From Candolleomyces eurysporus (taxonomy: Eukaryota > Basidiomycota > Agaricomycetes > Agaricales > Psathyrellaceae): DNA of 64,000 bases. The position numbers and the translations under genes are program-made. Positions 50,677 through 64,000 of this stretch are shown one piece after another; positions within the stretch are counted from its first letter, which is position 1, and every line of letters starts with the position of its first letter. The stretch is from the NCBI GenBank assembly GCA_027579435.1, contig JANBPK010001197.1, forward strand, positions 62,001-126,000, written 5' to 3'. The notes beneath the pieces are model-generated. The model did not search any database. It was given only the letters and a program-made list of their open reading frames with translations, and was not told the DNA's origin.

Positions 50677-51043
50677 AGGCTAACCGCTACAAACCCTATG
50701 CGATATTCGATAGGCCCAAAATGTATTAATACACGCGTTTTTGNTTTTATATATGTGACACTCGGCTGACAAGTTGATGAACATCAATCTGTAAGACATG
50801 TGCCGTTCAAATCCACGGAATCGGTGCTCGCCGTGGCCTAGAAGGCATCTTGGGGAACTAGTCATCCAAAAATACAACGAAATAAAAAATATCTTCATAT
50901 GGAAGCGAGGATATTATAGCTTCGGGATCATGTACGACTATGACGGGAAGAAAACTGACTCGAGATGAGGAGGGCATACGAAAGCTCCGGCGCAAGGAAA
51001 CGGATAGTGATCGTATTGAGGTCGGTGCCCAAAGCGAGGCCGC
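50677..51043. other. intergenic between convergent genes
   Basis: 3' regions of the S-adenosylhomocysteinase-like gene and the second P450. Lone N at 50744. Confidence 0.6.
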
Positions 51044-53171
51044 TCAGGTCTGTTGAAACAACGACGCGTGCTTTGGCGATCTTGGCTTAAATTCGCACTG
51101 GTAAGGCAGTGGCGTCCTGTCGCCGAAAATTATTAGCCCACTGCTCAGGTTGATACAGCAGTGACTTACGAAACAACATCCGAAGATGGGTTGAACTTCA
51201 TCTCAATAGGGTTCCCCGACTCATCCTTGGGTGGAGAGATGTCGAAAACAGCCAACAATGACGCGGCCACAATGAAGATTGCGTCGTTGCTTAAATGACG
51301 ACCCGGACAAATGCTGTAAAACGCTATAATCAGCCTTTGCTGCAATTGATACGACCTGGAGAAATCCAACGCACCGACGACCGAAACCGAAAGCGGCGAC
51401 TTCCGGATCTCGCGGTCCAGGAACGAGCTTCCCATCCTTCAAGTATCTGTCAGGTATGAATTCCATAGGGTTCTCAAATACCTCGGGATCATGCATGAAT
51501 GCCCTATTCAATCATGTTAACAGACGCGTTTCCTGCGAAAACGGCGACATGAAGGCACCCGAGGACCGAACACTTACCAGGTATTCATCATGATGTAAGT
51601 TCCCTTGGGTATGAAATACCCGTTGTATACGGTGTCTTGGGCACTTGCCCTCGAAAGGCCTGCATATAGTAGCAACCCCGAGTGAGCACAAAGAAAGTTG
51701 AAGCGAACAAGGGCTTACCAAGAGGTACAACGGAGTGCCATCGGCTGATCTCCTTCACGACTGCTGCAACATACGGCAAGTTCTCTCGGTCAGAAAGGCA
51801 TGGTAAACGGTCGTGTCCGATAACGCGATCGATTTCTTCTTGAGCCTTCTTCTGCGCTCGGGGATGGGCAGCGAGGGCGAAGACCAGTGCCATTGACGAA
51901 CTGACAGTCTAGCTTACGGACGTTAGATCCAAGCCCCGAATTGATCAGACATAGGGTTTCACGTACAGTGTCAGCACCAGCTACGTAACGAGAGAAGGTT
52001 CAGATACCCTGTTCGACTTCAAGATTCGAGGGAAGACCTACTCAAATACGCAAGATTGCAGACATTTTTGGCCACATCTTCACTGCCAATCCAGCTNGGG
52101 GGGTTTCTCGTCCTGCAACTTGTCGACCAAGTCGGCGGCCATGCTTGGGTAGGCACTTGTCTTGCCCTCTCGCTGTAAATGATGTCCGTTAGAACAAGAT
52201 TGACATCCCGAGCTATTAAACCAGACCCACAGCGATGTTCTTTGCAGCTTCGAATGGTTCTGAGAGCATTTGTTTGTTCAATGCGTCAAGATCCCTTAAC
52301 CGCTGCTTGAAGCCCGCTCCAGGGAACCAATCAGGAATCTTCCCCAAGCTGGGGAAGGTGTTAACGAGATATCGACCGGGGACAATGGCTTCTGTAAACG
52401 TCTGAACAAGCGTTTCGGCGTCCGTCACTAAACGCCTATTGGTTTCGGTATCATCGAATCCGTACGCCACCCTCATGATGATGGATCCCAAAGTGCTACC
52501 AAAAGACAGTGAGAATGTTGAGGGGTTGTTAGACGAAGTCTAGAACGTACAACCGGACATGTTCTCGGAAGTCAGCAGGCGATTCTGTGAGTCTGCGCAA
52601 CAAATTAACAGATTCTTGCTCCATGATTGGGTGGTACTGCACAACGGCGTTGTGATTGAGGTATTGGTGAAACACTCGACGGTCGTGGCGCCATTCCTGG
52701 CCGTAGTTTCTCATGGCGAAGCTGAAGTCGAGATCAATGCTGCAAAGAATAGATTAGAACATGAAGCTAACTGTGGATCGATTACTACCAACGTACAACT
52801 GACTGGCAGGAAGCCAAGGTCTATCCGAGTACATTGTCGCGTGCTTCTCCATCAAGTCCTCAGTGCGGTCCAAGCTGCCAAGGATTAAGATGGGTTGGCC
52901 CATGACATCGAGGTAGACCATGTCGCCTACAAACAAGTCTTCAGCATGCTGAGCGAATCTAGCAACAAATATCATCCACCGTATTGCCTCGTCAATTCTT
53001 GATAGACTTTCCATTGTTCTGATTGAGGGAGTTGGAACATGTTGCCGAATACAGGCAAGCCCTTTGGGCCAGGTGGAAACGGCAATCCTTGAGGGTTCCT
53101 CTTCTTGTTGTCGGCCATGTTCTTCGCGGCCCAAAGCAGTCCCCCGCCTGCTAACAATGCTGCTGGGTGCA
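51044..53171 (-). CDS. cytochrome P450, microsomal (copy 2)
   Basis: Multi-exon minus-strand gene. Start MHPAALLAGGGLLWAA gives a short membrane anchor, followed by the hinge LPFPPGPKGLPVFGNM. Further blocks: VYLDVMGQPILILGSLD; WRHDRRVFHQYLN; SIIMRVAYGFDD; the I-helix motif AGADTV; ExxR as EISRW; PDRYLKDG; haem signature FGFGRR-ICPGRH with an intron inside it at the same place as copy 1; C-terminus LPYQCEFKPRSPKH. A lone N at 52097 disrupts the frame: dropping it gives EKPPSWIGSEDVAKNV, whereas keeping it runs into a stop. Substrate unknown. It is related to copy 1 in general build but only distantly in sequence. Confidence 0.85.
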
Positions 53172-54914
53172 TATCTATACAGCTGCTGAGAGAGTTTGAA
53201 AGTAATTGTCGGACGAGAATACGAAGAGGGAATCCGATAACGATTTTGAGGTTCTTTGGCCTCCTTTTAACAATTTCATGAAGGCTTGTAACGGTTGCTT
53301 CTATAGGCAATAAAATTTGTCATAGATGCTTACAAGGTATCCACCCAGACACCGAAGTGATAGGCCAATCATATCCTCCGCAGAGCAAACATTCCGTAAC
53401 ATCTAAAAAACCAAAAGATCTTTCAGGCTTTGCGCTAAATAAGCTTTGAAATCCTCGTACTCACCATCAAGAGAGGGTTACTACCTGCCGACAGCAATTT
53501 TGCCCCGCACACCGATGTCAGATTTTCAATCACTGGGTCAAAGCGCCCCATCACCGACCAAGCCAGTACACTTACGAAAGATTGGCTGGTTCTGATAAAT
53601 ATGAATCGTCGTCCAGCCGATGACAAAACCACGATCGACAGACCTCCGAGAGGGGGCGATCGAGCAATGGTTTGGTGATCCTGGCACGCCACTGTATTTC
53701 GGGCTGAATGACAACATGGACTTGGGACTCGGAAGGGTGTACCGTACGGATCTTCGATGTCGTGGTCGTACGCGCTCTCCCCGCAAGGCATAATATCGAG
53801 GCTGAGTTGCGTGTTTGCGATTGGAGGGCGTTGCGCTGGGGATGGCGAAATAGTTTGTGTTAGTAGATCGAGCCGTCCTCGGAGCCGAGCATGATACGCA
53901 CTTCATTTCTTCACCCTGACGAGGTGTAGATGCGGTAAACTAGTGGGGCTTCCCTCAATGAGCAATTACCAGAGGATATGCTCAATACAATCGGATTCCA
54001 GCTCGACACGTCCGAGATGGAACGCCAGCAGCATGAGAGTCCGCGTCCGAAGGACGTCGGCCTTCCGAGTACGGCGGGCGAGCGACTTGAGAGATTTGAA
54101 TTGAACACTGAGAACTCCGATAGCTCATGGCAGCAGCAGAATCACCGCTTTGGCCACCCTTTCTGCGGTCTTCCACAGGGTGTAAGCTAGATAGCACCAC
54201 TACCGAGCTTTCTATATGTGGCCCGAACCTCGAAGAAAACTGCGAGTACTCGGTTTCCAACATGGAAATTAACTGACCAGCGGATCGACTATTATCATCT
54301 GGTGTCGTTAGGTCAGCAACTGCCAAGGACCGCCGCTGAGTTTGACAGAAAACCCACCGAAATAGCCCCGGGATATATACAGTTGTTATCCCTTCAAAGG
54401 ATTTGAAGGTGATAGAAGAGACGATGTCATAGAAATTGGCTGAATTAAATCGGAGTTGGACATTGGTCGAACTGTTCTTCGGCACACATCGCCGTATCAG
54501 ATTGATTGAATAACCTTCCCACGGCCGGGCAAGCCGCTGGCTTGAAGCATTGCATTTGTTGGCTTCAAACCCTTGATCTCTGTACTATAAGACCTCCAAA
54601 CCGCCATCGAGAAGGAATTTAAACAGTGAAAATAACTGGCTAGTTCTTGAAACTATTCCAGGAAGCCTTATAATACCCCTGCCTGACCTAGTTTATCGAG
54701 CCTTCACAGAACCTGCATCTTCAAATTTTGTGGATGACAGGCATAGATGCCCAAGTTGACGAGCGCATGGCCTCTGGGTCGAGCTGCGAGGGATTTCCAA
54801 CGATCAGGAGCGATCAGGATTCTGAAAGCGTCAGGATAGCCCCAAAAGTTGATCCTTGCACCGGGGAGAGCACAAGTATCATGGATATTGGTACGTCGCC
54901 CTACACCTTGCGAG
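53172..54914. other. no gene called; several open frames
   Basis: 1.7 kb between divergent genes. A minus-strand stretch around 53570-53830 is open in all three frames and ends at a GTAAGT donor, so an exon is possible, but I could not join it to others. A plus-strand frame at 53978-54190 (MLNTIGFQLDTSEMERQQ) has a protein-like composition without family match. Confidence 0.35.
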
Positions 54915-55873: not shown

Positions 55874-56111
55874 TCATATGCAGACCTCTGGACCCCCCTC
55901 CTTATTCTGAACGGGGCAAGAATCCTGGCGCTTCACCTCTACGTGGGATCATTGATTGCCATGAGTAACGCTGGATATGGATAGAACGCCCATCATAACG
56001 GTAACTCTTACCGTGCGTATAACCGCCAACAGGGGCAGCTCGAGTTCCCAAAGCGGCCGACACCGCAAGTACGAGTGCAAAGAGCCTTGCGGCAGAGATG
56101 TTCACAATCAT
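55874..56111 (-). CDS. secreted two-cysteine peptide precursor K1
   Basis: Exon 1 starts MIVNISAARLFALVLAVSAA, a clear signal peptide, followed by APVGGYTH; it ends in phase 1 at a GTAAGA donor. Exon 2 gives VKRQDSCPVQNKEGGPEVCI and a stop at 55874-55876. Total 54 residues. Lys-Arg before QDSC is a Kex2-type site, so the released peptide would be QDSCPVQNKEGGPEVCI with two Cys. The acceptor was chosen over one two bases later because only this frame matches paralogue K2 (KRQxSCP[VI]Q and VCI at the end). It is followed head-to-tail by K2, K3 and L on the same strand. Confidence 0.72.
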
Positions 56112-56338
56112 ATGAACTTTGCTGGCTTTCTGGGAGTTGAACAGGGGCCCGAATGCGAAGTCCAAGGCTGGAATATACACCCTCGAACATAGACCAGCTT
56201 AAATACTCGTCTCTATTATATATGTGAGAGAGGAAACCTAATTTGAGACGACACAGGGGATGGAAGCAGTTGATGAGTACTACGGCTCATTGAAAGACAA
56301 TCTTTGCCATATCTATCGACTTCGGTCTTTTCCATCGG

Positions 56339-56608
56339 TCAGATGCAAACTACTGGCCCGCTGTCGTATTCCTTTCCGCCACGGTTCTGCTTTTGAATTG
56401 GGCAGCTTGCCTGGCGCTTCTGAACTGTTTCCGCATTCATGGACCGGCCGCTGACTGCCCGAGTGTCAAAAGAGAAAGCCTAGAATTACAATTAGGAATC
56501 GTAGCGCTTACCATCAACGTAGTCGACCGGGGCGGCCGTGGCGACCAGAGTGGCCGACATCGCAATGGCGAGCGCCAGAAGCTTCGTTACAGAGAGCTTT
56601 ACAGTCAT
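56339..56608 (-). CDS. secreted two-cysteine peptide precursor K2
   Basis: Paralogue of K1. Signal peptide MTVKLSVTKLLALAIAMSAT, then AAPVDYVD, phase-1 donor GTAAGC at the same point as K1, acceptor GAAACAG. Exon 2 reads VQKRQASCPIQKQNRGGK then EYDSGPVVCI and a stop at 56339-56341; 60 residues in all. Shared with K1: APV after the signal peptide, Lys-Arg followed by Gln-x-Ser-Cys-Pro, and Val-Cys-Ile at the end. K2 adds a short insert containing one Tyr. The retained-intron reading gives only two codons past KRYDS before a stop, so splicing is needed to make the peptide. Confidence 0.72.
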
Positions 56609-57025
56609 TTGGAGCTTTACTCGGTGTGGCTGGCTTAACACGGGGGCCGAAAGGATGAGATAAACCAAAATGAAATGGGGATTGATTAAATAGAAATTCC
56701 GCTGAATATGGCTTCTCATAACATTTAGAAGGCACAAAACAATACAGCCACCGCAACGTGCGTTTCTACGCGAAGAAAAGAGAATAGTTTCCGAAGTTAC
56801 TCAGAAGTAGTAGTCATGAATAGGAGATGGAATAACGATAAGAACGATAATTACAGAAAGAGTTGTTGGCGGCTTCCTCAAGAAAGCTGGGAAGGTAGAT
56901 ATCCATCCAAATTCCGAGCCGCGTCTATCGCGAGAAAAAAAGGCTGTATTGTGCCCTGCAAGACCCGCTTGTGAGCCCCAGAAGAAACGAAGAAGCAAGC
57001 GCAGATACTTACCTTGGTCGATGGA

Positions 57026-57262
57026 TCAGATACAAATGCCCAACGAACCGGCAGTGCCCTTGACTCTGGCATCAGGATCAGTGACTGCAACAGCGCAGGC
57101 AGCATCGTCACTGGCAGCCACCGCTGTCATCGCGTGTCATCATGAGTTTGATTGACAAGTTGAACGAAAGAAAAGCTGCCCACCAGGTACCGGGAGAGCC
57201 AGAATCGAGCTTGATTCCAGTATCACCGTGAGCAAAACCATCAAATAACGCGAGGCACGCAT
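57026..57262 (-). CDS. secreted two-cysteine peptide precursor K3
   Basis: Exon 1 (57184-57262) encodes the signal peptide MRASRYLMVLLTVILE then SSSILALPVP and ends in phase 1; a 60-base GT-AG intron follows; exon 2 (57026-57123) encodes AVAASDDAACAVAVTDPDAR then VKGTAGSLGICI. Total 58 residues. It has the same build as K1 and K2: signal exon, phase-1 intron, two Cys in the mature part, C-terminal Cys-Ile. There is no Lys-Arg; Arg-Val-Lys is the only basic cluster. A consensus GTAAGT donor 13 bases past the stop hints at a 3' UTR intron. Confidence 0.62.
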
Positions 57263-58154
57263 CGTCTGGTTGAATAGACCTTGACACAATGTCAATCAAA
57301 AGTCATTTTAAGTGGCTCGATGATGACAGGGATCGTTGAACCAACCTGTAAAGATTGCTTGGAGTGGTTGGGGACAGAAGAAACCAGAGTGTCTCTCGGG
57401 CAAAACTTCGTTGCTATAAAGGCCCGGGCAGAGCGTTGCCCGGCTCCCTAGTATGCGCTCAAGGCGCCACGCTTGAGATATCATCGCAGCTCGCCCACCC
57501 GCTTCTTTGCTTCTCGAGTGGAGAAAGCTCTCATTGTCCTCGGCCGCCAGGAGTCGTCTCAGATGGTAACAGCGGTGGGGTGAGTGTCTAAAAGACACCA
57601 AGCCTACAAATTCTCATGTCAATAAGTCGCCATGCGGCCAGTCGAAGCACGGTTCATACCAAGACACTAAATCAATGTACACGAAATCAGGAGCCGTAGT
57701 GTTCTTTCCCATTGGCGTTCCGGTGAAGGTAGATGGCAAAGGAAGCACTCTGTTGGCGGATCTCAGGCAGATCTCAGGCGGAGATACGACTCTTTGGAAT
57801 AGTCCAGGCAAGGGAGCCTGCAGACCAGCCATTGCAGTTTCTTTCCAACGCGGGTACGAATCCGTGCGCTGCCAATAGTATATCCACCTAGAAATTCCAA
57901 TCAAGCGCGGCAGTTAAGTGAAGTAGCTTGTCAACGGGAGGGGGCCCGGATAGGAGTAGAATTCAAATAGAGCTTCGGCCTTGCGAACCTCATAACTTGT
58001 TTGACAGTCCAACTATACAGATGTATTTGAATAGACTGATGCCACATCTGTTCAATCTACGACGATAACGATCAGGAGGAAATTTGAATTAGTGTTCGCC
58101 GAGATTCATCAGGAGGATGATACTCACGCGTAGCTGCTGGGACAGGCTGCGGTT
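57263..58154. other. intergenic between K3 and L
   Basis: Open frames at 57308-57601 and 57614-57904 on the minus strand look protein-like in places but could not be assigned or spliced. No further peptide gene of the same type found. Confidence 0.4.
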
Positions 58155-58380
58155 TCAGATACAGATGTCAGGTGTGCAACCTGGATCCCCTGGGCCCCAT
58201 ATCGGTGGTATGGATGGGGCNGCCTTCGGCACTTGATATAAATCCTGTATTCGCTTCACAGCACGCGCAGCAAATGGGCGGAGCCTTACCAGGAAGATTG
58301 GTACTGGGTGGGATGGTGGCGCTTTCGACCGCCACGATTAATCCGAATATCAACGTCGTTGCAAGCCGGAGAGAATGCAT
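58155..58380 (-). CDS. secreted peptide precursor L, C-terminal Cys-Ile
   Basis: Signal peptide MHSLRLATTLIFGLIVAVES, then ATIPPSTNLP. A GTAAGG donor in phase 1 follows at the same relative place as in K1-K3; the 45-base intron is a multiple of three, so the spliced form is 59 residues and the unspliced form, which contains ICCACCE, is 74. With the lone N at 58221 removed the protein ends SIPPIWGPGDPGCTPDICI (stop 58155-58157). With the N kept it ends at 58168 in RLHT. The two-Cys, Cys-Ile end matches K1-K3, which favours removal. The spliced mature part has no Lys or Arg, so Kex2 cleavage is not expected. Confidence 0.58.
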
Positions 58381-58754
58381 TGGGTAGGGGTGGTAAAGAA
58401 TAACGCCAAGTGGCGAGCGAGCCAAGCATTGCTTTCTTTCAATATAACATCCAATTTGGGTGGAGAAACCCCGGGAGAATCTCCAGCTCGGGGGAAGGCT
58501 ATAGTAAAACGGCTAGGTCTAGAGGCCGATTGATACAACTTAATGGGTCATGCCCGTCAAGCCTATCCCGAGGTTTCGATCGGGCTGGGTCTCTGAGAAG
58601 GTCAGATAAGGCAAAGGATTGTGACGAACCAAGCACTCAATGACGATTTCACGACAGTAGAGATGGGAAGCAAGGGGAAAGAGGTTCTAATTATCGTACA
58701 ACGACCTAAGGAGGGTCAAAATTAAGCTTTGTGGAGAACGTTGGGGAACGCACA
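58381..58754. other. intergenic
   Basis: Spacer between L and the UstYa-like gene; holds the L promoter. Nothing else seen. Confidence 0.5.
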
Positions 58755-59425
58755 CTAAGACACTTTGTGGGTCTTGTTGGTCCACAAGGCGTGTTTCTCA
58801 TCGATGAAGTCGAACACCTTGGACCAATCTCGACAAACGTGAGTCGCACCAACCCTTTGGAGCGAGAAATTTCGAGACATAAAATCGCCCTTCTCCAACG
58901 TAAGATCCGAAGCACAAAGGGCGACTTGGCGTAGATAGTTGAGGCAATGAGTGTTATGATCATGGGTCGCGAATATCCTGTATCTCCCCTCAAATTGAGG
59001 ATCGAAAGCCCAGTTGAAGAATCGCAGGCAGTGGATTTGATGGAACATAGAGACGAGGAGGAAGCGATCGTTGGGTCCAAGACGGATGAATCCTCCCGAT
59101 GTTGGGGTCAAACTCTCCCAAAATGCGTCGCTGGCATGGCCCAAAAGAGAATAGTGATCACTTTCTTCTACTGTCATCAGCACATTGCCTAGTGGCTCAG
59201 GGAGCGGGAGGAGGTGGGGAAGGTCATGGCCAAGGTATGCTAAGTTTTTGACCCGTTAGCATTCTGGGCGTTACGTGTACGAGTCAGACACTCACAAGGA
59301 TTACTCGAGTTTGTCAGTGGGCTACGAGAGTTACCCCCTACCAAAAGTAATACTATCACCAGGTTGATGACGCTCGTTACTGCGAGAAGACGAGCTGTAC
59401 GTCTGGGGAGCAGCGCCGGCGACAT
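58755..59425 (-). CDS. UstYa-family (DUF3328) oxidase-like protein, canonical motifs
   Basis: Exons 59296-59425 and 58755-59239 give 204 residues. Short cytosolic start MSPALLPRRTAR, one TM (LLAVTSVINLVIVLLLVGG), then the lumenal domain: YLGHDLPHLLPLPEP, VLMTVEESDHYSL, FHQIHCLRFFNW and HNTHCLNYLRQVALC, followed by RVGATHVCRDWSKVFDF. Both HXXHC motifs (HQIHC and HNTHC) that define UstYa proteins are intact. In ustiloxin, phomopsin and related ascomycete pathways, members carry out oxidative cyclisation or other oxidation of secreted peptide cores. It sits about 375 bases from precursor gene L on the same strand. A role on those peptides is inference from neighbourhood. Confidence 0.85.
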
Positions 59426-60025
59426 AGCTGAATATGAAGAGTAGCAGAAAACGTGCTCCACCAATGCAGTGACCAGAGAAGCCGAAGTGACCTGTTTCAA
59501 GAAGCCTTGAAGAAGCGCAACTCCTGGGAGAACTGATTTGATACATCCTGTTAAGACGGTGAAGTTTAGATATATGGGACATGTTGGCCGTTTGCGAGAT
59601 CCTAGATAGCGCGAAGATCGCAACCTTAATGAACTCAAGGAAACAATGGATGTTGAGCGCTGAGCGCCGACTCGGTGCTCCGCAGTGCTCGGTGCACTAT
59701 TTGTGCGTATTTAAGATGCAAGCCGTAGCCTTTCGGTTAGGACGAGGAGCCTTGCAGGCGGTTCTACCTTGGACCTCTACCTCTGCTCTCCACTCTATTC
59801 TACAGGCAAAGCCCAAAGCAAAGGTCGTTATATGAAGGAAACAGGATAGAAGAATGCCGAACCCAAAGAGGTAAGCTTCCCTCAGACTGGCTCCTAGTCC
59901 CAAATACAAACACATCATCTTCTGCCGATTTCACACAGGCCCAGAATCACGGATGAAATTATTTATGTGCTTCCTGGTCACATAACGGGACGAGGGGCTA
60001 CGCTTCTACCATTCCTAAAGCTATC
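59426..60025. other. intergenic, divergent promoter region
   Basis: Separates the minus-strand UstYa-like gene from the plus-strand membrane protein at 60026, so a shared promoter is possible. No feature seen. Confidence 0.5.
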
Positions 60026-60973
60026 ATGGCGGACTACGCACCTTTGCCATCTTCACCAGACGAAGTGCCAGAACGAGTGGCCCTTTCGAAACCATCTTCA
60101 TGTTCGTGCCCGTCCTCTTCATCCGGTGCAGAATTGAGAATTTTTACATAAGGGGACAAATGGCTGACTACATCGGCCCTGATAATGACGATATTAACGA
60201 CGTTGCTCTCGTTCTCGATATATTTGACTGGGGCTAATCCATTGGACATGCCGGTCGCGGGGCTGAAAAGACCGAATCCGTATCCAAACCTCCAATTCCC
60301 TCTCTCGTCGAACGCAAGCACCGCGCCGTTTGCGCCAATATACTCCCTATCCCAAGTTCTATTGCAGCTCAGAAACGATGATCGCAGCAGAGCTATGTAT
60401 GAAGACGCCTCGCGCCAGCGACTCACAACGGAAGGAACAGTGTTCCCTGACGACAGACACTTCGTTGTTAATCGTGAAGTCAGCCCGTTCACTCCTACAT
60501 AGACCTTTGACTGATATGAGAATCAGCTCTCGACGATCATCCAACTCAAGACTCTGGACTGGGGCATGGAGCGCTGCGTCTTGAATGCCGTACTTCCGAA
60601 CAGGACGTCGGAGCTAGACCCTGCCATTCATATGGAAGGTGCCAACGTCTTGGATATATGGAGGCTCGACTTTGACGAAGAAATCACTGTCTATGATCCT
60701 CAGACCTGGTCGAAGGCACCGAAACGTCGATCCCATTTCGCTCAGTTTGTATTCCCACCTCGCAACGGATGGTCATCGGTCGAGTTCCATTGTCCCTCTT
60801 TGACATGGAACACGTTCGAGTTTGCATGTGCTCCAACAGCCGGTGCTTGCCACGTCGAATTCTGGCAAGACAGGGCCTCGCCAAACGGTATGTCTGTCGC
60901 CCTTGGCGGTTTAGAATCGTCTAACCCTTTTACAGGGATCTATTTACAGCAGTTCGATTCAGTCCATGTTTAG
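60026..60973 (+). CDS. type II membrane protein with conserved C-terminal Cys domain
   Basis: Four exons (60026-60101, 60153-60478, 60521-60887, 60936-60973) give 268 residues. Start MADYAPLPSSPDEVPERVAL, then a TM segment (ALIMTILTTLLSFSIYLTG) and a lumenal or extracellular domain: IIQLKTLDWGMERCVLNAVL, ANVLDIWRLD, APKRRSHFAQF, VEFHCPSL, FEFACAPTAGACHVEFWQD, ending GIYLQQFDSVHV. This Cys-bearing domain recurs in Agaricomycete proteins of the same size; I know no function. Its layout mirrors the UstYa-like proteins that flank it (58755 and 60994), and it ends 20 bases from the convergent second UstYa-like gene, so it may act with them. Confidence 0.75.
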
Positions 60974-60993
60974 TCGCAGTCGCATCAATATAT

Positions 60994-61696
60994 TTATGTT
61001 ACATGACGGTAGTGCTTGTAGTTCTCCTCTGCGGCCTTATATACCTCCGTCCAGTCCTTGCAGGTCCTGTGAGCAATGTCCGAGACAACGATACCCCTCC
61101 TCAGATGCCTAGCGTGCTCCAGCTGCAAGTCCGACCGGCACAAGACCATCTGTCGCAAATAATTCATGCAATGATGAACCAAGGCATCCGGCTTGACGGC
61201 CCTTCCGCTCTGCTCAAAGTCGACAAAGCCCTGCCTGACGACGTCCAGGCATCGAAGCTCGTGAAATAGAGAGATGCTGTAGGGCTCGAGATCTTCTCCG
61301 AGATGCAGCATGCCTCCTCCGAGTGGCAGCGAGTTTTTCCACTCGATTGCTCCGCGCGATGTGTTGTACGCAAAATGGACTGAGTTTTCCATCGTTATTC
61401 TCGCCCTTTTGAGAGGAGGTATGTCCCATTCTCGCGGAAGGTCCGAACCTCGGTATGCTAATCGAATCTTTAGCAACCCCTCGCCTGCAGTCAGAGACAC
61501 TGGCTACTCACTATACGTCTTAACGGGTGGATCATTTCTTGTCTTTATCGTGACAACGGCTAGCAGCGTACTACTGGAGAAGAATAGGAGCAGAACAAGC
61601 CCATCGATCGAGAATAGGTCTGTCGCGAGTGCTATTCTCACTTGGCATGAGTCCGTCGAGCGTTGAGCAGTCAGTCCTCTTACCTTTCAGCTTCAT
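60994..61696 (-). CDS. UstYa-family (DUF3328) protein with altered HXXHC motif
   Basis: Three exons (61684-61696, 61512-61619, 60994-61457) give 194 residues. A 13-base first exon supplies MKLK; exon 2 adds DLFSIDGLVLLLFFSSSTLL, the TM segment; exon 3 carries YRGSDLPREWDIPP, VHFAYNTSRGAIEW, GGGMLHLG, then FHELRCLDVVRQGF and LVHHCMNYLRQMVLCRSDL, and HRTCKDWTEVYKA. The first HXXHC is HELRC, so its second His is Arg, and the second motif reads LVHHC, keeping HC but with the first His displaced. The YLG, CMNYLRQ and CxDW blocks are otherwise typical. Known UstYa pairs often contain one more divergent member, so this could be the partner of the canonical copy at 58755. Confidence 0.8.
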
Positions 61697-62613
61697 GCTA
61701 ACGTGAGTCTGCTTGATAGGAGCCACAGTCTTTGCCACTCTGATAACACGTATCCGTGGACATTCAGTCCATCTGTGTGAGAACTCGACGAAGGCACTGC
61801 TCGACCTCGGTATCTAAAATCTCCGCTATTGTCACCTTGTCTCAATTTGGCCATCCCAGCGGCTTCTCGAAGCAGTTCTGTATTGTAACAAGCGCAAACC
61901 AGAACCCACGACGCAGCTTCTCCTTCTTCAAGTCGGCGATTGACCGATCGAAGAGCTCTTCGCTATCGCAGGGAGCCGTGAGCACATGGACTGTAAGTGG
62001 GTTTTACCGCGATGATTATCATTCTCTTGCGGGCACCTCGTCGAAACCAACTATCAGTATGTCGCTCTTACAAAACTCGATTTCCATACGCGAAAGGAAG
62101 TTATACTAACTTTGGATGTGACAGGACGGATAGTTGGTAGCATGGTGGTGGTATCAATACCGTCTTTTACTGACACCCATCTCCGTCATGATCTCAGTTT
62201 AGCCGCTGGTCTCCCAATTGAGGAGCCATGAAGATTTCGGCGATGAGTCAAGCTGCTGTTTCAACGACCGGCCAAACAATTCATATATCTTTGTCTGGAT
62301 TATCGCGCGCCAAGTCGTCAAGCCAAGCCACGAGAAAATAGATTGTCAAGGATCTCGCTTGACTTTGGACGGGGCTTCTTGTGATCCTGATGAAGATTTT
62401 CCCTCTCCAAATACAACAGGCACATCCCTCTCAAATCCGCTGTATTCTTCTCCAGGCACACGCTCGGGTATGACTATCACCACTTCCACTGCGCGCCGTA
62501 TAAGTAGACGTCCATGAGGCTAGCGGCTTCTTCTCCCAGAGCCGAGCTTTTACCCCAGCTTCGCCCCTGACCATCATCTCTCCTCTGGGTTCCCTGTCTT
62601 TGATCATCTACAG
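61697..62613. other. intergenic with a gene remnant
   Basis: Holds the remnant listed at 61764-62087 and the promoter of the gene at 62614. Confidence 0.45.
61764..62087 (-). pseudogene. remnant of an unidentified protein gene
   Basis: On the minus strand, 61990 down to 61764 reads like real protein (VHVLTAPCDSEELFDRSIAD, LKKEKLRRGFWFALVTIQN, then TIAEILDTEVEQCLRRVLTQ) but has one stop codon at 61842-61844. A preceding exon-like stretch, 62087 to 62037 (MEIEFCKSDILIVGFDE), ends at a GT donor, yet its phase does not fit the acceptor at 61991. One stop and one phase clash suggest decay. Family not recognised. Confidence 0.35.
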
Positions 62614-64000
62614 ATGGCTCCCCCACCACTCCAACCTGAATGGGCCACTGATGAGCCCCCAGAGCTGCTCTTCCTCGAACGGGTCATCCATGCTGCCGTA
62701 AACATGGGTGCTGTCGCATTCGGTGAGTGATCCCGACGTCACTTTCTCCTTGAGACCACAGGGACCGATAAGCTAATCCTTTGCGTTTCTGTTTTGTCGA
62801 TGGGCGGTTACCTCTACAGGTATCCATGTAGCCATTTTCGCCATCTGCACGTACCAATTCACGAAGGCGAAGAAATTCCCATATTTGCAGCAACTGTATA
62901 TCACCACGATCTTTCTCCTGGCTCTCGTCACGATTACATGTAATATTCGTCACAATCAGTTGAGCTGGATCGACAATCGAAACTACCCTGGAGGTGTGTT
63001 TCAGTGCTTGCTAGATGACCCTCGTGCACTGTCTAATGAAATACTGTCTACGTCTAGGCCCGCTCGGGTTCATCCTCGAGCAGCAACCAAACGTCGTGAA
63101 TACCGTTGGAAACTCTGCTGGCCTCATACTCGCTTTTATGGTCGACTCTCTTTTGGTACGTCACCCTATTGATTTCGACAATGCATGTTCTTATGGTTTA
63201 CGGCCAGATCTACCGATGCTATGTCGTCTGGAATAGCAACTACTATGTTATTATTCTCCCTATTCTGACCCTAATCGCTTCCACAGGTAAGCCTTCGGCT
63301 CGGACCACGATGTGATCACATCTCGTCAGAAGTCTCGCATCACTGACTCTCATTTCTCATACCCATAGTCATGGCATGTTTCCAGACCATCGCCGCTTCC
63401 GAGCCAATGGGGAGTCTCTGGGCCGAGCGTGCCGTGCTGTACGGCTTGCCATACTTCTGCCTCTCCATGTCGGTGAACATGCTCGTCACAGCGATCATCA
63501 TCACTCGTCTGTTGCTAGCCCGAAGGAGCATTCAGTCTGTTATGGGCAAGGATCATGGTAAAGAGTATACGGGTGTGGCGGCTATGCTGATTGAGTCGGC
63601 TTTACCACCGGCTCTTGTCAGTGCGGTGCTCATTGCGCTGTACGCTCAAGCAAATACGGCACAGATACTCTTTTTCCCACTCCTTCCTCAGGTCCAGGTA
63701 TGTGTGATAATTATCCTAGTCTGTGTGCTTGTTTTAACGCATGGTTTCCTTCCTTTTCTCTTATTGAATGGGATGTGATCGTAATAGGCTATGGCACCGC
63801 AGCTTATCTTCATTCGGGTGATGCGAGGAAGGGGTTGGTCTAAGGATACGATGTCGCGTCGTGGCCAGACCGTGACGGAAGTCGAGTTCAACTCTAATCC
63901 AGTCTTGTCGTCGAATAAAGGTTCGACGACGATTGGTTCCGTGGCTTGGCGAAGCGAACATTCACATTTGGAGAAGGATGATTCGACGATTCACTTGTCT
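62614..64000 (+). CDS. multi-TM protein of Agaricomycete 7TM type (3' partial)
   Basis: Runs off the right edge. Exons 62614-62722, 62820-62993, 63058-63155, 63208-63286, 63369-63697 and 63788 onward, all in phase. Start MAPPPLQPEWATDEPPELLF, then TM helices with HVAIFAICTYQF, YITTIFLLALVTITCNI, the loop SWIDNRNYPGGP, NSAGLILAFMVDSLLIYRCY, VVWNSNYYVIILPILTLIAS, YGLPYFCLSMSVNMLVTAII, and the conserved block GKDHGKEYTGVAAMLIESAL; it ends in a Ser/Thr-rich cytosolic tail (WSKDTMSRRG on). The DNRNYPGGP loop and HGKEYTGVAAMLIESA block are hallmarks of a large mushroom-specific family of likely seven-TM proteins without known ligand. It is unrelated in sequence to the three receptor-like copies at 5-11 kb. 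Confidence 0.85.

Follow-up and report, generated by a model that had tools for sequence, protein, structure and literature searches.

In the dikaritin pathways that lead to ustiloxin, phomopsin and asperipin-2a, a secreted-type precursor carrying a Kex2 site lies beside genes of the UstYa family (DUF3328), two of them in the case of ustiloxin (PMC7329392). Kex2-processed repeat proteins (KEPs) are defined by three or more tandem repeats, each eight residues or longer; in a survey of 1461 assemblies, 103 of 1680 Basidiomycota KEPs lay near DUF3328 genes (PMC7329392), and a study of Coprinopsis cinerea likewise searched for repeats (PMC9769878). On the enzyme side, the DUF3328 protein CctR is a dimer holding two copper ions per monomer, with the HxxHC motif as the proposed site, and alanine mutants of this motif are inactive (PMC12435403). 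As far as the published accounts considered here go, the nearest precedent for what follows is found in lichen fungi, whose DUF3328 clusters include precursor candidates that lack repeats (PMC12048977). Here we describe a locus of the mushroom Candolleomyces eurysporus, contained in a stretch of 64,000 nucleotides (the window: positions 62001-126000 of contig C202 in the 65.85-Mb genome), where four two-exon genes for short secreted-type precursors ending in Cys-Ile occupy the minus strand between window positions 55874 and 58380, beside two UstYa-family genes, UstYa-A and UstYa-B, from a family whose enzymes serve fungi in cross-linking peptides of this kind.

We read this locus as one copy of a repeated cassette, composed of UstYa-B, a But2-like gene, UstYa-A and the precursors, for the production of a secreted, oxidatively modified peptide, and give this reading a probability of about one half; the gene set points to a kind of modified fungal peptide that has not been described so far. 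Like the dikaritin loci, it combines secreted-type precursors, two of the four with a putative Kex2 site, with UstYa-family genes, as many as in ustiloxin, but it differs from them by a single core per gene, two conserved cysteines, four precursor genes, one UstYa protein without the full motif, a But2-like gene and a mushroom-type genome. With the KEPs of Agaricomycetes it shares a signal peptide and Lys-Arg cutting, both predicted here, whereas its precursors have no repeats. UstYa-A resembles CctR and other copper DUF3328 enzymes in its HxxHC(x)nHxxHC signature, membrane anchor and conserved cysteines; by comparison, CctR is described as a homodimer acting on a non-ribosomal peptide, while UstYa-A adjoins a motif-degenerate UstYa-B (PMC12435403). 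The lichen precursors of Clans R1 and R2 near DUF3328 genes also have a signal peptide, a Kex2 site and unrepeated motifs; they belong to Lecanoromycetes, the portion of that study considered here contains no Cys-pair precursor, and there both HxxHC motifs are reported in all signature genes of the DUF3328 clusters (PMC12048977).

The four precursor genes, first proposed in a first-pass annotation of the window, are borne out by splice models (Table 1). Each starts with a hydrophobic stretch, is interrupted right behind it by a phase-1 intron, and has two cysteines further on and the exact end Cys-Ile-stop; hydropathy was the sole criterion for signal peptides, and all four passed this filter. 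A strict scan, run on both strands for peptides with these features encoded in two exons around a phase-1 intron, returned four matches in the whole window, every one in the precursor cluster (the gene at 58155 can pass via its shorter form), and none between window positions 1 and 55000. The same scan found none in 103,219 bases from 13 other loci of the same genome, taken apart from the paralogous loci L012, L015, L024, L026, L028 and L040, and none in 400 random sequences of 2.8 kb that matched the window in dinucleotide composition. A looser scan of L009-L020 and the window, open to introns of any phase and to the ends C[IVL], added a single weak candidate, in L015, ending in Cys-Leu.

Table 1. 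Features of the locus in window coordinates.
Feature	Position	Strand	Gene model	Basis
Precursor K1	55874..56111	-	exons 56111-56012 + 55938-55874; 54 aa; Lys-Arg site	splice models, paralogue alignment
Precursor K2	56339..56608	-	exons 56608-56512 + 56424-56339; 60 aa	splice models, paralogue alignment
Third precursor-like gene	57026..57262	-	exons 57262-57184 + 57123-57026; 58 aa	splice models
Fourth precursor-like gene	58155..58380	-	exons 58380-58290 + 58231-58155; 55 aa; AAG acceptor	
UstYa-A	58755..59425	-	exons 59425-59296 + 59239-58755; 204 aa	Pfam PF11807, gene model, alignment
But2-like membrane-type gene	60152..60973	+	between UstYa-A and UstYa-B, opposite strand; C-terminal But2-like domain	
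UstYa-B	60994..61696	-	domain exon 61457-60994; preceding exon ends 61512	Pfam PF11807

Judged by their sequence features, K1 and K2 are the solid gene models of the four. They share KRQxSCP[VI]Q with its Lys-Arg, as the first-pass annotation had noticed, and their putative cores are QDSCPVQNKEGGPEVCI (K1, after Lys-Arg) and QASCPIQKQNRGGKEYDSGPVVCI (K2). The calculated monoisotopic mass of the K1 core is 1801.7975 when linear and 1799.7818 once 2 H are lost, that of the K2 core 2576.2475 and 2574.2319; an N-terminal pyroglutamate would lower each value by another 17.0265. The K1 intron measures 73 bases, which is no multiple of three, and K2 left unspliced runs into a stop. An alternative acceptor in K2 would start exon 2 at 56454 and give 70 residues; in the 60-residue form the acceptor is placed as in the paralogues, one to three codons ahead of Lys-Arg. 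In the gene at 57026 the best donor, GTGGGC, is weak. The gene at 58155 has an alternative form of 41 residues, with a standard CAG acceptor and exon 2 from 58189; both forms end in GCTPDICI, and a base N at window position 58221 falls inside exon 2 of the 55-residue form. These last two genes are given less weight because they have no Lys-Arg site and no convincing paralogue elsewhere in the genome (the best other matches are weak, E 1.51 for the gene at 57026 and 0.765 for that at 58155). The argument is carried by K1, K2 and the cassette copy on contig C64.

A search of the genome with UstYa-A found four places at about 59-60% identity or more per piece, namely the window itself, C64 and two on contig C1164, the next best match lying at 34%; all four are followed downstream, on their own strand, by a precursor of the Lys-Arg type. 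Two copies of the gene set are intact (C202 and C64) and two are broken (C1164). At C64:32001-42000 (L012), UstYa-B, the But2-like gene on the opposite strand, UstYa-A and one K-like precursor follow each other in the same order and orientation as in the window; the enzyme block is about 74% identical in DNA, and outside it the shared translated matches are short only. The two sets on C1164, around 42-45 kb and 58-60 kb, each have a readable precursor downstream, while only the first piece of UstYa-B and part of UstYa-A are left, one copy of the latter being interrupted by a frame break and by a stop. The But2-like domain was found at two places in the genome at E <= 0.001, C202 and C64, both between UstYa-A and UstYa-B, and its search gave no match at the C1164 sets. 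K-like sequence occurs at six places (C202, C64, three on C1164, and C62), two of them degenerate: one on C1164 at about 60.4 kb (C1164c) and one on C62, where the 7.4 kb fetched (L026, L039) contain no UstYa-A or UstYa-B sequence. Peptide genes without UstYa neighbours, whose wide occurrence would in the first-pass annotation have refuted the proposal, are within this genome limited to the C62 remnant, the other five places lying downstream of UstYa-A-like sequence. The Lys-Arg-type precursor lies 0.8-0.9 kb from UstYa-A on C64 and C1164 and 2.1-2.6 kb from it in the window, where the gene nearest to UstYa-A is that at 58155, 0.4 kb away.

The enzyme-side genes of the window and C64 were compared by a Nei-Gojobori count of nonsynonymous and synonymous substitution (dN/dS) on single exons. 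UstYa-A gave a dS of 0.85 and a dN/dS of 0.19, UstYa-B 0.93 and 0.15, and two exons of the But2-like gene 1.19 and 0.16, and 0.73 and 0.21; low ratios at a dS of 0.73-1.19 indicate that all three genes have been constrained over a long separation. In a MAFFT alignment of the five Lys-Arg-type precursors (K1, K2, C64, C1164a and C1164b), AAP and two cysteines occur in all, along with a single Lys-Arg and a single core, and the invariant positions, in K1 numbering, are M1, S6, L10, L13, S18, A19, AAP25-27, KR36-37, G49 and Cys-Ile 53-54. The first core cysteine does not fall in one column, each core having one cysteine no more than four residues after Lys-Arg, and a Tyr precedes the second cysteine in all cores except that of K1. 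The exact Cys-Ile end claimed by the first-pass annotation holds for the four window genes and is not universal: exactly where these have TGA after Cys-Ile, the three paralogues (L012 7210-7485, L015 6068-6340, L024 1501-1774) have TGG, for Trp. Between the C64 and C1164b precursors, whose acceptor would be AAG in both cases, intron length differs by two bases and the exons show no indel; a length difference confined to the intron supports splicing, although the difference could also stem from decay of the C1164b copy.

Both UstYa-family neighbours announced by the first-pass annotation score well above the PF11807 cut-off of 25 bits (59.2 bits for UstYa-A, 52.4 bits for UstYa-B). UstYa-A has one N-terminal hydrophobic stretch and intact HQIHC and HNTHC motifs, the two HxxHC motifs of canonical copper DUF3328 enzymes; its best named relatives among 113 matches belong to Coprinopsis marcescibilis (62%), Coprinopsis cinerea (57%) and Laccaria amethystina (54%), and CC1G_09584 is one of its relatives. 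UstYa-B, with its hydrophobic stretch in the exon ending at 61512 and a short first exon from ATG 61696 placed by eye, has HELRC and LVHHC instead. In an alignment of 61 sequences, made of UstYa-A, UstYa-B and 59 of the 113 homologues of UstYa-A, the six motif positions read H, H, C, H, H, C in 60 rows, UstYa-B being the sole deviant in a set picked by similarity to UstYa-A and thus favouring canonical members. In UstYa-B an Arg replaces the second His and a Leu the third, so that two of the four motif histidines are lost, and its C64 copy shows the same losses (HELRC and LVYHC). Because these histidines are lost in a protein that is nonetheless conserved, and CctR motif mutants are inactive, UstYa-B may by analogy be a non-catalytic partner of UstYa-A rather than a second canonical enzyme; it could conceivably carry a different metal site.

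Of the 16 Pfam matches in the genome, one is an upstream piece at C1094 and the other fifteen were inspected for motifs; both motifs are present in six of these, a single one in two and none in seven. Full-motif and degenerate members are combined on each of the four contigs with two or more UstYa genes (C202, C64, C1151 and C1034), a count that sets aside C1164 for its broken copies and C1094, whose two matches are apparently one gene. Degenerate members are thus not rare in this genome, which fits the partner idea, yet UstYa-B is not unique. Further UstYa genes lie at C1151:54-94 kb, C1034:10-14 kb and C993:13.8 kb (L009-L011, L013, L016), several of them degenerate (for example YNQLWC with VHRC, or HQLRC) and mixed with canonical members on C1151 and C1034. 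The match of the But2-like gene to its domain is sub-threshold (23.1 bits in the window and 19.5 in the C64 copy, for a Pfam cut-off of 24.2), and its first-exon model is provisional because an in-frame stop precedes 60152, ahead of the membrane stretch (window 60019-60152), and the C64 copy reads differently there.

Should the cassette work as proposed, the K transcripts would be spliced in the cell and the precursors would enter the endoplasmic reticulum via the predicted signal peptide, to be cut by Kex2 after the single Lys-Arg (K1, K2, C64, C1164a, C1164b) into one core of 17-28 residues, with one cysteine near its start and the second in the Cys-Ile at or near its end. UstYa-A, membrane-anchored and facing the lumen, would act on this core as a copper- and oxygen-dependent oxidase, and UstYa-B, minus two histidines of the canonical binuclear copper site, could pair with it as a structural or substrate-binding partner. 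The two cysteines would close a ring of 13-20 residues, by a disulfide or an oxidase-made link, in a product that presumably functions outside the cell. Entry into the endoplasmic reticulum, Kex2 cutting, copper oxidation and ring closure are here modelled on the families concerned; the product may have a disulfide, a thioether or no bridge.

Several observations weigh against this cassette reading. Three counterpoints raised in the first-pass annotation hold: the models of the K-type precursors have one core per gene, unrepeated, the K1 core contains neither Tyr nor any other aromatic residue, and Lys-Arg is missing from the genes at 57026 and 58155. In addition, the C64 stretch yielded one precursor for four in the window; the C64 and two C1164 precursors run past Cys-Ile into a CIW[L/T]RED tail; and no precursor relative outside this genome was found in a search of the protein collection. 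On C1164 the UstYa-A- and UstYa-B-like genes are truncated or frameshifted, yet two precursors read through their exons, so that enzyme and precursor are not strictly retained together; enzymes of C64 or C202 may act in trans on the C1164 precursors, or these may be decaying. Duplication copies neighbours along with each other and by itself partly explains the repeated blocks, so that their recurrence does not independently prove that the genes act jointly. The proposal that precursors and UstYa genes form a locus for modified peptides is partly supported: the link between them is upheld by the five K-like places of six, and the proposal is altered or weakened by the ends beyond Cys-Ile, the single cores, the one full-motif UstYa and the broken C1164 enzymes.

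Plain secreted disulfide peptides, of a defence, signalling or effector type, could also be freed by signal peptidase and Kex2 while the UstYa pair serves another substrate and is no more than a neighbour. This account is possible, if less probable than the cassette: two conserved cysteines are enough for a disulfide, Tyr is not universal in the cores, two of the four window genes have no Lys-Arg, and the repeat-precursor peptides detected in C. cinerea and other agaricomycetes are described as linear and minimally modified in the material drawn on here (PMC9769878); it leaves aside, however, that C64 keeps the layout with three enzyme-side genes under purifying selection and that the But2-like gene is found in the cassette only. 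Unlikely as a whole is a bolder form of the cassette reading, a new mushroom class of ribosomally synthesised and post-translationally modified peptides in which a copper UstYa oxidase and a catalytically dead UstYa, obligately joined as a heterodimer, would macrocyclise single-core, two-Cys precursors, with a Cys-derived thioether as a possible link; the pairing of canonical and motif-degenerate members would then be a general rule in such fungi, an idea based on the four contigs that have both kinds. Hitch-hiking, in which several duplications of a segment carried along precursor-like genes that now decay as functionless passengers, would explain the degenerate precursors at C1164c and C62, the broken enzymes on C1164, the weak splice sites in the gene at 57026 and in the 55-residue form of that at 58155, and the AAG acceptors in C64 and C1164b; we consider it improbable, as AAP, Lys-Arg and Cys-Ile are kept in five precursors whose cores have strongly diverged and the C202 and C64 enzymes are constrained. 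A locus of the classical dikaritin or KEP kind, in which repeated cores are cyclised through Tyr, is suggested by the UstYa homologues, the signal-peptide-like start, the Kex2 site and a Tyr in four of the five Lys-Arg-type cores, and is very improbable with one core per precursor in place of the defining repeats and a K1 core devoid of Tyr. That label was rejected for the window precursors, their cores being unrepeated and the defining feature missing; they may nonetheless work similarly.

Both Kex2-peptide surveys begin, in the parts considered here, from repeated cores (PMC7329392, PMC9769878), and single-core precursors beside mushroom UstYa genes would thus escape them. A suitable search rule would combine a UstYa pair, a But2-like gene and a small two-exon gene ending in Cys-Ile or Cys-Ile-Trp. 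If active, the cassette would offer a defined enzyme-substrate set for how DUF3328 copper enzymes choose peptides, and a test case for motif-degenerate UstYa members as partner subunits.

Two further genes of the window deserve mention. Beside UstYa-B, a multi-exon membrane gene occupies window positions 62600-63900 on the plus strand; its family is large, with no fewer than 150 matches in the genome (150 of 254 candidates scored), but three of the five best ones elsewhere are found on C1151 at 0.5-3.5 kb from UstYa genes (matches at 81259, 58505 and 91477; UstYa genes at 82109, 54739 and 93277). On the minus strand, at about 51000-53300, lies a gene judged P450-like by eye, two exon pieces of which gave no Pfam match over the cut-off when tested (best 12 bits). 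Its main aligned pieces each show 34-58% translated similarity to a stretch near C1151:102-104 kb, on a contig that bears five UstYa genes.

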